Shown here in pieces: positions 31,027 to 52,208 of a DNA stretch of 64,000 nucleotides. Location of the stretch: positions 124,001 through 188,000 of the forward strand of contig NZ_BATR01000104.1 of assembly GCF_000739655.1 (NCBI RefSeq), in the 5' to 3' direction. The position numbers and the translations under genes are program-made. Origin of the DNA: Verrucomicrobium sp. BvORR106. Lineage in GTDB: Bacteria > Verrucomicrobiota > Verrucomicrobiia > Verrucomicrobiales > Verrucomicrobiaceae. The first letter of the stretch is position 1. Each line of letters starts with the position of its first letter. Below the pieces are notes generated by a model that worked only from the letters and a program-made list of their open reading frames with translations, did not search any database and was not told the origin of the DNA.

Positions 31027-32339
31027 ACAGGCTGGGTGCATTGGCGCTGCTGGCGGGAATCTCCAGCCTTTTGATCCTCTCTGGATGTCGGCAGGAGCAG
31101 CGGGCGAACGGTGATCTGATCCCGTCTCAATCACCTGCGGACCTCCCGCAACGGGCCTATGTGTGGCAGCGGGACTGGAGTGCTCCAGTGGCGAGGTCAC
31201 TTCGGGAGGGGAAGGACGTGCTGGCAGGTTGTGTGGTGCTGGGGGCCGAGGTGGAGTGGCGGAATGGTTCCCCTTTTCCGGTTCGACCCAAGATCGACTG
31301 GGATGCGCTGCGGTCCTTTGGGAAACCCATCGGTCTGGCTCTGAGAGTGGCTCCATACCCCGGTCCCTTCAGTGGAGAGGGGAGCGTGGTGGCCAGCCTG
31401 CAACAGGTGGCACAGGGCCTTCTCGCAGAGGCCCGCAGGGAAGGAGTGGAGGTTCAGGAGTTTCAGCTCGATTTCGATTGTGCCCAGAAGAAGCTCACCG
31501 GTTATGCCGCATGGGTGAAGGCGCTGCGACAAAGCGTAGGCTCCATGCCGCTGGTCATCACGGCGCTGCCTTCCTGGCTGTCGGAGCCCGCCTTTCCCAT
31601 CCTCGCCCGCGAAGCGAGGCGCTATGTGCTCCAAGTGCATTCGGTGTCCTCTCCTCTGGGTGATGACAGGACCCAGATCTGTGATCCTGCTCAGGCCAGG
31701 CGATGGGTGGCGCAGGCGTCGGCGATTGGGGTGCCGTTTGAAATCGCGCTGCCCACCTATCGGTCCTACGTGGGATACAGCCCGGAGGGCAAACTGGTGG
31801 GCGTGGCGTCAGATTCCGTGCGTCCCTCCTGGCCATCAGGCACCCGGATCAAGGAGTACGGGCTGGATGAGATCGCCATGGCGGCCATGATGAAAGAGTG
31901 GCTGATGAAGAGGCCTGCTCATGTGGAGGGCATCATGTGGTACCGCCTTCCCGTGGCCACGGATGAAAACAACTGGCGCTGGCCGACCCTGCGGGCGGTG
32001 ATGGAAGGACGCCCACCCAGCCAGAACTGGAAGGTGAGAGTGGAGGGGAGCAGTCACGCAGGAGGTGACTTGCCGAACCCGGTCGATCTGGTGTTGAGCA
32101 ATGCGGGTGAGTCAGACGAAGCTCCGAGCTGCCGGGTGGAAGTTCGCTGGGACACTGATGCCACCGCCGTTGCCGAGTCTCTGCCGGGTTGGGAGGTGCG
32201 GAAGGGGAAAAGGTCCGTCGTGTTTTTCCGTGCCGTTGGGAATGCGAGACGATTGCCGCCCGGAGGGGATTGTGCTATCGGCTGGCTGCGTCTGGAACCC
32301 GGCGCTCCAATCCATGTTGAAGTTGTCCCTGTCCGCTAG
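31023..32339 (+). CDS. DUF3142 family lipoprotein
   Basis: A 438-residue lipoprotein. The signal peptide ends in the lipobox LILSGC, so Cys22 would be lipidated and the protein anchored in a membrane. YVWQRDWSAPV, FQLDFDCAQKKLTGYAAWV, LVITALPSWLSEPAF, YVLQVHSVSSP, IALPTYRSYVGYS and GIMWYRLPVATDENNWRW match DUF3142, a probable TIM-barrel glycoside-hydrolase-like family without a characterised member known to me. The conserved Asp/Glu-type positions (FDxD in QLDFDC) look intact. It overlaps the small gene upstream by 4 bp and the TPR-like gene downstream by 26 bp, so the three genes form a tight operon. Confidence 0.85.
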   Translation: MNRLGALALLAGISSLLILSGCRQEQRANGDLIPSQSPADLPQRAYVWQRDWSAPVARSLREGKDVLAGCVVLGAEVEWRNGSPFPVRPKIDWDALRSFGKPIGLALRVAPYPGPFSGEGSVVASLQQVAQGLLAEARREGVEVQEFQLDFDCAQKKLTGYAAWVKALRQSVGSMPLVITALPSWLSEPAFPILAREARRYVLQVHSVSSPLGDDRTQICDPAQARRWVAQASAIGVPFEIALPTYRSYVGYSPEGKLVGVASDSVRPSWPSGTRIKEYGLDEIAMAAMMKEWLMKRPAHVEGIMWYRLPVATDENNWRWPTLRAVMEGRPPSQNWKVRVEGSSHAGGDLPNPVDLVLSNAGESDEAPSCRVEVRWDTDATAVAESLPGWEVRKGKRSVVFFRAVGNARRLPPGGDCAIGWLRLEPGAPIHVEVVPVR

Positions 32340-34551
32340 AGTTGGGTTGTTGGTAGTATTTGCTGGTGCTTCGGCACAGGTCTTTGCCACGGGGATGTGG
32401 ATGCCCCGTTCCTGGATCGGTGAGCGTGGGGAACCTCTGGTGGCGGCACCGGAGTTCTTCTGGGAACTGGAGGTCAAACGTCTGGCCGCAGAACAAGAAG
32501 CGGCTGAGGAACTGGTCCCGGCGCCCTATCCAGAAGACTCCACGGATCAGGAGGCCTTTGAGGGCTATCGACAGGCTTTCACTGCCAAGGTGGACGTCGA
32601 GGAGTTCGAAGCTGCTCTCAAGTCGGGCGGCGTGAAGGCTGCGGATCCGGCCAAGGCCCTCCAAGCTCACCGGCATGCCAGGCAAAAGCTGAGCGGCCTT
32701 GCCAAAGGCGAGGCCGAAGTGCCCGCGGCAGAAGAAGCGCCGGGCGAATTTGCCGACTATCATGCAGGAGCGCTCGCCATGGATAGCGACAAAGCCAAGG
32801 CCAAGGCAGCATGGGAAGCTTTGCTGCAGCGTCCGGCGGAAGATCGCAAATACCGCTCCACCTGGGCGGCCTCCATGCTGGGCAAGCTGGCGCTGGGCGA
32901 GAAGAAATATGACGAGGCGGTGAAGCGGTTTCAGGAAACACGCAAACTGGTCAAAGATGGATACGCTGATGCCTTGGGGCTGGCGGCGGAGAGTTATGGG
33001 TGGGAAGCCCTGGCGGAGATGGAGTCTGGCCATACCGCGCAGTCGGCCCGGCTCTACCTGACCCAGTTGTCCCTTGGTGATGTCTCCGCGGTGGTCTCGC
33101 TGAAGTATCTGGTGCCGGATCGCGATTCGTCCCCGTATTCAGACAATGATCCGGTGAAGGTGTCACCCGTGGTTGGAACGGCCTATGCTGTGGAGACAAC
33201 GGAGGCCGCACTGGCCAAAGCTGCTGCGGATCCCGTGCTGCGTCGTCTGGTGACTACCCACGTTCTTGCGGTTGGCGTCGGCTCCACCTGGGACAACGAT
33301 AGCGGAGTATCCAAGCCAGATCCCTCCCGGCAGACCCGGTGGCTGGCGGCCGTCGCCAAGACCGGTGTGAAGTCCACGCCGGATGCCGAGTATCTGGGTT
33401 GGGTGGCCTACAGCATGGGCAAGTATGAAGATGCCGGTCGCTGGTTGAAGCTCTCGGAAGGGACCAGTCCGGCCGCTCGTTGGCTGAAGGCGAAGCTTGC
33501 CCGGCGTGCCGGGGACCTGAAACTGGCGGCGACGTTGATGGCCGAGGTGGTGCGCGACCTGCCTGAGAAGGAGGAATTGGAGAACTCGTTAGGAGAAGAC
33601 TCGTATCCCATGCCGCTCAGCCGGAGCGCAAGTTGCGATCTGGGAATGATCCAGCTCACGCGAGGCGACTATCTGGCCGCGCTCGATTCCTTCCTGGCGG
33701 TGAACATGTGGGATGATGCCGCCTATGTGGCCGAGAGGGTGTTGACCACCCAAGAACTGCTCGCTTACGTGGCTGAGCACTTCCCTGAGGTGCCCAAGCC
33801 AAAGGATCCGGACAACTACACGGAGGAGGAGGCGAAGCAGCATGACGAAGCCACCCGGATCCGTTCGCTGCTGGGGCGACGCCTGATGCGGGAGGATCGC
33901 TATGCCGAGGCTCGGCCCTATCTTCCAGAGAATCAATGGCCCAATCATGACCGCTACGTGGCGGCATTGAAGGCGGCGGCGAATGAGAAGGCGTCCAAGC
34001 AGGAGCGGGCTCGCGCCTTGTTCACGGCGGCGTGGGTGGCCCGTTATCACGGTATGGAGTTGATGGGGACAGAGGGCGGTCCAGATTCCAGCTCCACGGC
34101 TGGGGACTTTATCTCACCCAACACGGCCATGGAGCGCCTGACTGGGCAGAAGCAGAAGATCGGTTACTCTGACGATGAAGAAGAGCCGGATTTCAAGCCC
34201 GGACCTGCGGGTCTGGTCGTGCCGGTCAGCCCGGATGAAAAGAAGCGTCTGACGAACACGAAGCTCAATCCGGAAAAGCGTTATCACTATCGCCACGTGG
34301 CCGCAGGCTTGGCCTGGAAGGCGGCTGGGTTGTTGCCCGACCAGTCGGAAATCACCGCTGATGTGCTGAACACGGCAGGTGGGTGGCTCAAAGGTCGCTA
34401 CCCCAAGGAGGCGGATCGTTTCATCCAGGCCATCGAACGGCGGTGTTACAAGACCGAAATCGGCAAGGAAGCCGGCAAAAAGCACTGGTTCGTGGAAATG
34501 GACGGCCCCTGGAGCAAGGAGGAGGAAGCGGTGGATCCGGTGCCGCAGTAG
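32314..34551 (+). CDS. Large secreted helical-repeat protein
   Basis: A 745-residue exported protein. ATG 32314 gives a clean signal peptide (ARVGLLVVFAGASAQVFA); the open frame further upstream lies inside the DUF3142 gene. The body is Ala/Glu/Lys-rich and helical with TPR- or Sel1-like elements, for example YRSTWAASMLGKLALGEKKYDEAVKRF, WVAYSMGKYEDAGRWLKL and LTRGDYLAALDSFLAVNMWDDAAYVA. No catalytic motif is seen. The 26-bp overlap with DUF3142 suggests coupled translation and a shared role, perhaps as a scaffold for the lipoprotein in the periplasm. Large TPR-like exported proteins next to DUF3142 genes are plausible partners; the family is unnamed to me. Confidence 0.7.
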   Translation: MLKLSLSARVGLLVVFAGASAQVFATGMWMPRSWIGERGEPLVAAPEFFWELEVKRLAAEQEAAEELVPAPYPEDSTDQEAFEGYRQAFTAKVDVEEFEAALKSGGVKAADPAKALQAHRHARQKLSGLAKGEAEVPAAEEAPGEFADYHAGALAMDSDKAKAKAAWEALLQRPAEDRKYRSTWAASMLGKLALGEKKYDEAVKRFQETRKLVKDGYADALGLAAESYGWEALAEMESGHTAQSARLYLTQLSLGDVSAVVSLKYLVPDRDSSPYSDNDPVKVSPVVGTAYAVETTEAALAKAAADPVLRRLVTTHVLAVGVGSTWDNDSGVSKPDPSRQTRWLAAVAKTGVKSTPDAEYLGWVAYSMGKYEDAGRWLKLSEGTSPAARWLKAKLARRAGDLKLAATLMAEVVRDLPEKEELENSLGEDSYPMPLSRSASCDLGMIQLTRGDYLAALDSFLAVNMWDDAAYVAERVLTTQELLAYVAEHFPEVPKPKDPDNYTEEEAKQHDEATRIRSLLGRRLMREDRYAEARPYLPENQWPNHDRYVAALKAAANEKASKQERARALFTAAWVARYHGMELMGTEGGPDSSSTAGDFISPNTAMERLTGQKQKIGYSDDEEEPDFKPGPAGLVVPVSPDEKKRLTNTKLNPEKRYHYRHVAAGLAWKAAGLLPDQSEITADVLNTAGGWLKGRYPKEADRFIQAIERRCYKTEIGKEAGKKHWFVEMDGPWSKEEEAVDPVPQ

Positions 34552-34590
34552 CCGGTGCGTCGGTGCGTCGGTGTTGCGCGTGTTATCTCA

Positions 34591-34689
34591 TGAACCCGGA
34601 GGGTTCGCCAAACGTAGCCATGGGTCGGCCGAGCGGAGCGAGGACTACCCATGGTGGACCGGGTTGGGAATTCTACCGCGCAGCGGTAG
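34591..34689 (+). repeat. Hairpin repeat, copy 1
   Basis: Three hairpins in a row: A, GAACCC/GGGTTC (34592-34606); B, CCATGGGT (34618-34625)/ACCCATGG (34647-34654) around CGGCCGAGCGGAGCGAGGAC; C, CTACCGC/GCGGTAG (34673-34689). An inverted second copy lies 70 bp downstream. The arms of B differ between copies but stay complementary. Confidence 0.75.
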
Positions 34690-34759
34690 GCCTGGAGGGA
34701 CCAAATGACGGATGAGATGTATCGCGGGATGTCGTCTGGGGTCCGGCAACTCGATGGGC

Positions 34760-34858
34760 CTACCGCTCCGTGGTAGAGCGGCGGGCGGGAACGTTCCAGT
34801 GGTAGCCCTCGCTATGCTCGGTCGACCACTGGCTATTCATGGTGAACCCTCCGGGTTC
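34760..34858 (-). repeat. Hairpin repeat, copy 2 (inverted)
   Basis: The same A-B-C order read on the minus strand: C, CTACC/GGTAG (34760-34776); B, CCAGTGGT (34796-34803)/ACCACTGG (34825-34832); A, GAACCC/GGGTTC (34844-34858). In B both arms changed relative to copy 1 with base pairing kept; the loop (AGCCCTCGCTATGCTCGGTCG) is similar to copy 1. Confidence 0.75.
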
Positions 34859-35134: not shown

Positions 35135-35764
35135 TCACTGCTTTGATGCATCGCCCCGATGCCTCTCCTGCGGAGGCAGGTCGGTCGGAATTCCCGCAGC
35201 AGTGAGGATGGCATTGAAGTGTTTGTTCTGCTTCTCGTGCTGCACTTGATCGTATTGGTCGGAGGAGAGATAAATGGTTCCCATCAGCACGGAGTCTTTG
35301 TAGATTTGAGCTGAGGCGCATTCGTAACAGATGAGCAGGTCGTGTACGGTGCTATCCACCTTCGCTGGTATTCCGTGCCGGGGACTGAAGCAGGAGACGA
35401 CTCCTCCTGACCAAAGTTTGCCAGATTTGTCCAGATCGGTGACAATGGCTCGGAGGTCGGGGGTAACGGAGGTTGTCGTCTTGCCAAGAACGGGATGGTC
35501 GTAAAATAGCTCAGGGCCTGCAGTCGCGTTGTCGCTGGGCGCAGGGGACTCTTCAGGATACACCTGCCCGGGAGATAGCGAGAAGAGCGTCCACTCAGTT
35601 GCTTTGAAGAAGGGGAGCAACTGGTCGGACTGGTATGTGGGATCTTGAAAGATGTGGGGCTGCCAGCGGACAAGGTACCATCCACCCGCGGCGATCAGTC
35701 CCAGAAGCGAGACCAGCACGATGAAGACTCTGAGGAGCCAACGACGAATCAAGGGGACATTCAT
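35135..35764 (-). CDS. Unrecognised membrane-anchored protein
   Basis: A 209-residue protein with one N-terminal membrane helix (VFIVLVSLLGLIAAGGWYLV) and a periplasmic domain containing two paired Cys (DLLICYECASAQIY), a pattern I associate with uncharacterised exported proteins whose CxxC-like pair may form a disulfide. No family name can be given. GC content and codon use look lower in GC than the housekeeping genes, as in the neighbouring small genes, which would fit an accessory region. It is divergent from the CMD gene at 35897. Confidence 0.6.
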   Translation of the reverse strand: MNVPLIRRWLLRVFIVLVSLLGLIAAGGWYLVRWQPHIFQDPTYQSDQLLPFFKATEWTLFSLSPGQVYPEESPAPSDNATAGPELFYDHPVLGKTTTSVTPDLRAIVTDLDKSGKLWSGGVVSCFSPRHGIPAKVDSTVHDLLICYECASAQIYKDSVLMGTIYLSSDQYDQVQHEKQNKHFNAILTAAGIPTDLPPQERHRGDASKQ

Positions 35765-51894: not shown

Positions 51895-51930
51895 GCGTGG
51901 GGCGGGTGCTGGCACAATCCGACCGCCACA

Positions 51931-52000
51931 ACTCCTTCGGAGTAAGAGTTCTGTCTCCGGATACCCAACGTAGACTCGCTTGAAGCTCGTCAACGTTGGG
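51931..52000 (+). repeat. Hairpin repeat, copy 3
   Basis: A-type hairpin ACTCC/GGAGT (51931-51943) followed by a B-type hairpin CCCAACGT (51964-51971)/ACGTTGGG (51993-52000). Read in reverse, the B loop is TGACGAGCTTCAAGCGAGTCT, similar to the loops of copies 1 and 2 (GAGC-n-GCGAG core), while the arms are different but again complementary. It sits in the 314-bp noncoding gap (51895-52208) between the M50-like gene and an SDR gene. Nothing else is evident in that gap. Confidence 0.65.
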
Positions 52001-52208
52001 CTTGTGACCGCATCCTCTTCGAGGAAGAGCTTCCAGTCGCCACCCCGCTACCGCATCCATGCTGATTGGAGTATGGGCGGCCACTCGTCCGGGTCCTTGG
52101 GCCGTTCAGCCGGGTGGGTAGCCGTTCCACCTTTTCTTGCGGTGACGGTCCTGGCTTGCGGTAGCCTTCGGCGCAAAGAACCCCCGAAAAAAGACCCCGC
52201 AAACCCCC

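Follow-up and report, generated by a model that had tools for sequence, protein, structure and literature searches.

Three-hairpin inverted doublets of Verrucomicrobium sp. BvORR106 as REPIN-like elements probably mobilised by IS200-like transposases

The window analysed here, a stretch of 64,000 nucleotides on contig C106 of the 8.69-Mb draft assembly (G000) of Verrucomicrobium sp. BvORR106, carries an intergenic element of about 267 bp at 34592–34858, flanked by the convergent ORFs 32101–34551 (+) and 35135–35764 (−). The element has the form of a REPIN-like doublet, in which a half of 98 nt is followed by a spacer and an inverted half, with a gap of exactly 70 nt (34690–34759). Both halves contain three hairpins in identical order, namely A (GAACCCGGAGGGTTC), B, and C (CTACCGCGCAGCGGTAG / CTACCACGGAGCGGTAG). 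The left half (34592–34689, +) is of the G type, with GGTTCG and a preceding T, and matches the covariance model R1 at 102.4 bits, whereas the right half (34760–34858, −) is of the A type, with GGTTCA and a preceding C, and matches at 97.8 bits. Sequence and DNA folding place hairpin A of the left half at 34592–34606 (+; GAACCC-GGA-GGGTTC), hairpin B at 34618–34654 (+), with arms CCATGGGT/ACCCATGG, tandem G.A mismatches and a GGA loop, and hairpin C at 34673–34689 (+; CTACCGC-GCA-GCGGTAG), while hairpin B of the right half lies at 34796–34832 (−), with arms CCAGTGGT/ACCACTGG. On the strand that matches the model, hairpin B consists of arms of eight pairs, inner tandem G.A mismatches and an nnA loop, and hairpin C reads CTACCGC-GnA-GCGGTAG or a near variant, the right half carrying the same on the opposite strand. 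The initial annotation had described two inverted three-hairpin copies 70 bp apart, whose hairpin B arms differ while pairing is kept and whose B loop core (GAGC-nnA-GCGAG) is common to both, and our analysis agrees in each of these respects. When single halves were folded as DNA, they were beaten by only 0–2 of 200 shuffles.

The element is one of many in this genome. BLAST of the element returned 109 matching pieces, including more than 20 near full-length copies, and a search with R1, which was built from 30 halves, gave at least some 130 halves at E ≤ 1e-3; this number is a lower bound since only 150 candidates were scored. A genome holding these copies alone would have refuted the proposed repeat family, and this outcome did not occur. 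Among 42 close pairs of halves, 34 were inverted (+ −), and in 28 of those the spacer was 69–73 nt long, indicating that the usual unit is a doublet of fixed size; spacer length is thus conserved, while conservation of its sequence is weak. Fourteen measured copies were 263–268 bp long. For 21 full copies a left neighbour was found, and most of these copies lie directly past the stop codon of a gene, often between convergent genes.

The pairing of the three hairpins was analysed in several sets of halves. In alignment A1, 97.4% of the cells were paired and seven pairs had changed on both sides, as compared to 2.7 in shuffles, with none of 500 shuffles as high. Slid structures on the same alignment paired at 33–43%, a comparison that favours the proposed structure, since it was written down from the same sequences; RNAalifold, unaided, recovered the same three hairpins. 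As the doublet can also form one long hairpin in silico, local and long-range pairing were compared at the three most variable pairs of stem B in 24 full doublets, giving 141/144 paired locally versus 87/144 between halves. The two halves differed at these pairs in 21 of the 24 elements, each half retaining its own pairing, and it is therefore the small hairpins that are kept, so that one long inter-half hairpin was rejected as the selected structure. Among 59 halves near transposase genes, double changes were seen in 24 of 26 pairs, and 96.2% of the positions were paired as compared to 68.5% when shuffled and 33–42% when slid, although this test is lenient because the alignment was fitted to the model. 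Read without a model-fitted alignment, 30 distinct A hairpins were 94% paired, whereas shuffled ones reached a mean of 63% and a maximum of 75%. Lack of covariation once more copies were aligned had been named as a second outcome that would speak against selection on structure, and it was not what we observed. The pairing of the local hairpins is under selection and is maintained by compensatory changes, as the annotation had inferred from the pairing kept across copies.

A third copy, previously placed at 51931–52000, was recovered at 51929–52026 (−) with an R1 score of 39 bits (E 1.4e-6 in the 64-kb window). It is a genuine copy, with its own A, B (CCCAACGT/ACGTTGGG) and C hairpins, in which the stems have changed and the architecture is the same, but it is a single half and belongs to another family. 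This family has at least 40 single-half relatives in the same genome and at least 40 in a congener, in units of about 113 bp, and the ends closest to it are those of the TnpA locus L139 in genome G001 (80% identity). The third copy is common to BvORR106 and G001 and is largely absent from G003, a complete congener of 8,220,857 bp. Units of a further family (GATCCCAGTATGGGATC .. AGCCCAAGGTTGG ..), which resemble the ends of the TnpA loci L031 and L119, were seen about 50–700 nt from units of the third-copy type (L294, L300, L301, L314, L317, L318, and L320).

The bases before and after hairpin A are linked in the main family, with T..G at 60, C..A at 58 and other combinations at 10 of 128 ends from G000 and G003, and they mark two end types. 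Wobble-like pairs are possible for T.G as well as for C.A, so an extra pair at the foot or a preference of the cleavage site are possible readings, neither of which is backed by test data. T..G ends often bear TTATNNCAT on the outside, and many copies have in addition a tandem array of heptamers or octamers that begins at the neighbouring gene's stop codon or close to it. In the window, the left flank (34552–34591, +) starts directly after the stop codon of ORF 32101–34551 and consists of an octamer array, (CGGTGCGT)n, followed by GTTATCTCAT. This arrangement is common to many G-type copies, and whether it belongs to the element is unsettled. Further arrays were seen to the left of the element at L003, L009, L011, L013, L016, L017, and L027, and the unit of 7 or 8 nt varies by locus (GGTGCGTC, TTCTTGG, CTTGGGT, CTTGGTG), the arrays ending in TTATNNCAT beside the element. 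The data do not support the array as a constant component of the element: at the window locus, G001 retains it but has no element, and elsewhere (L011 compared to L269) the element of G003 comes without the 120-nt array.

A search with Pfam Y1_Tnp gave 18 matches in the BvORR106 genome, seven of them short and IS200-like, with a length of about 150 aa in complete copies. Six of these seven genes (L031, L032, and L034–L037) lie between a + half and a − half recognised by R1, each locus with its own flavour, the halves of L032 scoring low; the seventh, L033, had weak R1 matches only. The long Y1 genes that served for contrast (L038–L042 and L044) gave no flanking pair of halves in the scan. Two long Y1 genes of a different kind, L042 and L043, are adjacent (G000:C151:2749-4111; frames of 300 and 351 aa, YYHCISRVVDRRF), have many similar genes in G003, and are likewise without a flanking pair. 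Most short TnpA genes of five relatives also lie between inverted halves, while L121, L122, and L125 among them gave no clear R1 match. In G003, the tnpA of locus L134 is bordered by GAACCC halves scoring 92.8 and 100.1 bits, and judged by its sequence this locus may be an autonomous, intact-looking relative or parent of the main GAACCC family. Short TnpA genes broken by stops were observed between recognisable halves at L139 (G001:C95; TGA) and L132 (G048:C20; TAG), which may be signs of decay after spread.

The halves vary together with the protein that they flank. Across 23 loci, protein identity and half identity were correlated (Mantel r 0.69), with none of 5000 permutations as high; for protein pairs below 55% identity the correlation was only 0.30, so that closer relatives account for much of the signal. 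Half identity was 81% within a locus versus 55% between loci, and for 18 of 23 left halves no right half of another locus was closer than its own. These observations bear on an alternative in which the element is an ordinary MITE, with long terminal inverted repeats read as double-stranded DNA by an unrelated (e.g., DDE) transposase and the Y1 genes being incidental. Units of fixed size with inverted repeats and no coding sequence are what such an element would look like; however, the Y1 gene itself lies between matching halves at many independent loci and in many genera, the halves follow the protein in sequence, and compensatory changes preserve small hairpins within each end, a feature that double-strand recognition would not need. 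No target-site duplication was seen by eye in the flanks, although a clean empty site for comparison was lacking. We consider a MITE of this kind very unlikely.

The evidence on the history of the element is indirect. The window locus holds a decayed copy in G003 and no element in G001, and the element boundaries could not be read from G001 because its downstream flank has diverged; comparison of this locus with G001 and G003 gave neither a target-site rule nor a clean empty site. At many loci G000 and G003 both carry an element, in a comparison for which the G003 stretches were chosen around elements. The picture is one of an old, inherited and partly decaying element population, for which there is no direct evidence of movement. 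No close homologue of the L134 TnpA was found in the BvORR106 assembly, the best match being 42% identical; since the intact-looking parent is found in G003, the main-family population of BvORR106 is probably inherited and largely orphaned.

The annotation had left it open whether the repeat is an RNA element or a REP-like mobile unit. Dispersed inverted doublets, compensatory changes and Y1 genes with the same ends bear out the mobile unit, while nothing was found for an RNA element: Rfam 15 gave no match on the element at gathering thresholds or up to E 10, and the co-varying partner is a transposase of single-stranded DNA. Modules acting as RNA, be it as mRNA stabilisers, bidirectional terminators or small RNAs in 3′-UTRs and intergenic regions, with pairing selected at the RNA level, would fit the very stable RNA fold and the position of most full copies directly past a stop codon, often between convergent genes. 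Such a 3′ position is also expected if insertions that disrupt genes are selected against, however, and the modules pair off with a DNA transposase, also beside its gene and in both orientations. We regard a primary function as RNA as unlikely. REPs have secondary RNA roles, and a side effect on transcripts is therefore compatible with a mobile element.

The short TnpAs match solved TnpA structures of the IS200/IS605 family, including those of ISDra2 and IS608 (E 1e-17 to 1e-15), and all 21 members match PF01797 and NF033573, the NCBI IS200/IS605 model. Invariant residues in alignment A2 include the two histidines of HUH, WQ, the tyrosine and, four residues after it, a Q, as well as the second histidine in the HH that comes next. 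Y---Q--HH was also present in 77 of 80 homologues among the matches listed from a wider search, the signature not being part of the search pattern, and the TnpAs of BvORR106 are diverged (36–50% identical to L031). In the survey of Quentin et al. (2018; PMC6006769), subclass 1.2 of TnpA-Y1 was described by Y---Q--HH, WQ, a length of about 148 aa, low copy number and low identity between copies; its members lacked REPs and generally the terminal structure of IS200, and came mostly from Cyanobacteria and Bacteroidetes. The short TnpAs appear to fit this subclass by signature, WQ, length, low copy number and low identity between copies, without placement in a tree. In contrast to the survey, which reported no terminal structures, they have three-hairpin inverted flanks and a far wider range; the absence of such structures was a survey result of 2018 and not part of the definition.

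A RAYT-type transposase had been suggested as the gene to look for, and a Y1 gene family flanked by the same ends is indeed present, but its proteins are not strict RAYTs (class 2, Y---NP). Inverted doublets, a single cognate Y1 gene for each family, a TAG preceding stem B in the main family (GTAGCC or ATAGCC) and the match of 15 of 21 TnpAs to the NCBI REP-associated model (best E 3e-7 versus 8e-21 for the IS200 model) could all be expected of a canonical GTAG-tagged REP/REPIN system with a class 2 RAYT. That system has one hairpin instead of three and Y---NP instead of Y---Q--HH (definitions in PMC6006769), and its strict GT[AG]G foot is absent, stem B standing on GTAG or ATAG in the main family and on ACAG, CAAG or other bases in other families. 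A canonical system was rejected on the foot and the protein signature and is extremely unlikely.

Nevertheless, the likeness to REPINs and their RAYT/TnpAREP partners (Nunvar et al., 2010, PMC2817692; Bertels and Rainey, 2011, PMC3116915) is extensive, comprising non-autonomous, extragenic, high-copy inverted doublets of palindromes with a spacer, single units as likely remnants, a Y1 gene between the same units, and one repeat type per transposase. The REPINs described there are built from one palindrome of 20–40 nt, whereas the module found here is about 98 nt long, has three hairpins and no strict GTAG foot, and goes with a short IS200-like Y---Q--HH protein that is not of class 2. IS200/IS605 elements of subclass 1.1 (IS608, ISDra2) have in common with the units studied here an HUH/Y1 TnpA of about 150 aa, hairpins at both ends, and tnpA as the only coding sequence; they differ in having one subterminal hairpin per end on the same strand, as opposed to three per end and inverted, and near-identical tnpA copies per genome in place of diverged ones, and in BvORR106 doublets without tnpA dominate. 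TIRYTs and TIRtrons (Di Nocera et al., 2013; PMC3733652) are likewise Y1 genes between long inverted repeats, some of them self-complementary and some with dispersed dimers in the genome, but their TIRs share the motif GGGGWSAS, and the text describes no order of three hairpins. The 26 described TIRYTs belong to subclasses 2.1, 2.2, and 2.5, and none to 1.2 (Quentin et al., 2018; PMC6006769). The papers listed by a literature search for the repeat sequences were all unrelated ones on oligonucleotides, and no paper linking subclass 1.2 to three-hairpin ends was found in a search without most subscription journals. Subject to the literature not searched, two things are new: inverted ends with three hairpins each, and a link to a DNA partner for a TnpA subclass that had been an orphan.

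When GTDB species genomes were searched with the TnpA alignment, at least 80 loci were obtained, and the matches listed came from Verrucomicrobiota, Planctomycetota, Bacteroidota, Acidobacteriota, Armatimonadota, Fibrobacterota, and other phyla, with no Cyanobacteria among the 80 listed. At the loci listed, triloop hairpins occurred beside the gene at 2.45 per 260 nt, as compared to 0.54 in distal and 0.34 in shuffled sequence, and hairpins with a GNA loop at 0.80, as compared to 0.07 and 0.02. A strict A-B-C scan, written after these flanks had been viewed, hit 40 of 67 loci among the matches listed on one or both sides and 19 of them on both, whereas distal controls gave 1/56 for one side and 0/56 for both and shuffled ones 0/201; the flank of a Kaistella locus (L212; GCCACGAAGTGGC / CATAGGGTAAAACCCTATG / GGTCTGAAAGACC) is an example. 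It is likely that three-hairpin ends are the DNA target of the subclass 1.2 group. On balance, though with considerable room for doubt, we favour the broader proposal that TnpA-Y1 subclass 1.2 generally has three-hairpin inverted ends as its DNA partner in Verrucomicrobiota, Planctomycetota, Bacteroidota, Acidobacteriota and others, and that copies without tnpA make up a large unexplained class of short palindromes, such as the AGCCCAGGGC..GCCCTGGG and GCCCTGAAAGGGC types. As a separate observation, the open frame of L033 and repeats in L205, L209, and L219 give peptide motifs like TSPGQRPG when the repeat is read through; motifs of this kind are common in predicted proteins of these phyla.

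In conclusion, the doublets of BvORR106 are very likely REPIN-like non-autonomous elements mobilised by IS200-like TnpAs with the subclass 1.2 signature, and movement is probably as single-stranded DNA, although neither transposition nor cleavage has been shown. As we infer it, the three-hairpin module would fold when the DNA is single-stranded, for example on the lagging-strand template, and a TnpA dimer may bind two modules. The TnpA tyrosine would then cut near the outer hairpin and rejoin the DNA, by which either units bearing tnpA or, in trans, doublets and singles without tnpA might be moved.

Subclass 1.2 was set apart in 2018 as kin of IS200 without IS features or a known DNA partner, and a partner is now proposed. 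The proposed substrate is testable: a module of about 98 nt that forms three hairpins, the arms of which vary together with the enzyme. The category of REPIN-type mobile elements thereby comes to include many short palindromic repeats found in Verrucomicrobiota and probably in several further phyla. This raises the mechanistic question of how an IS200-like dimer handles inverted ends that carry three hairpins and not one.
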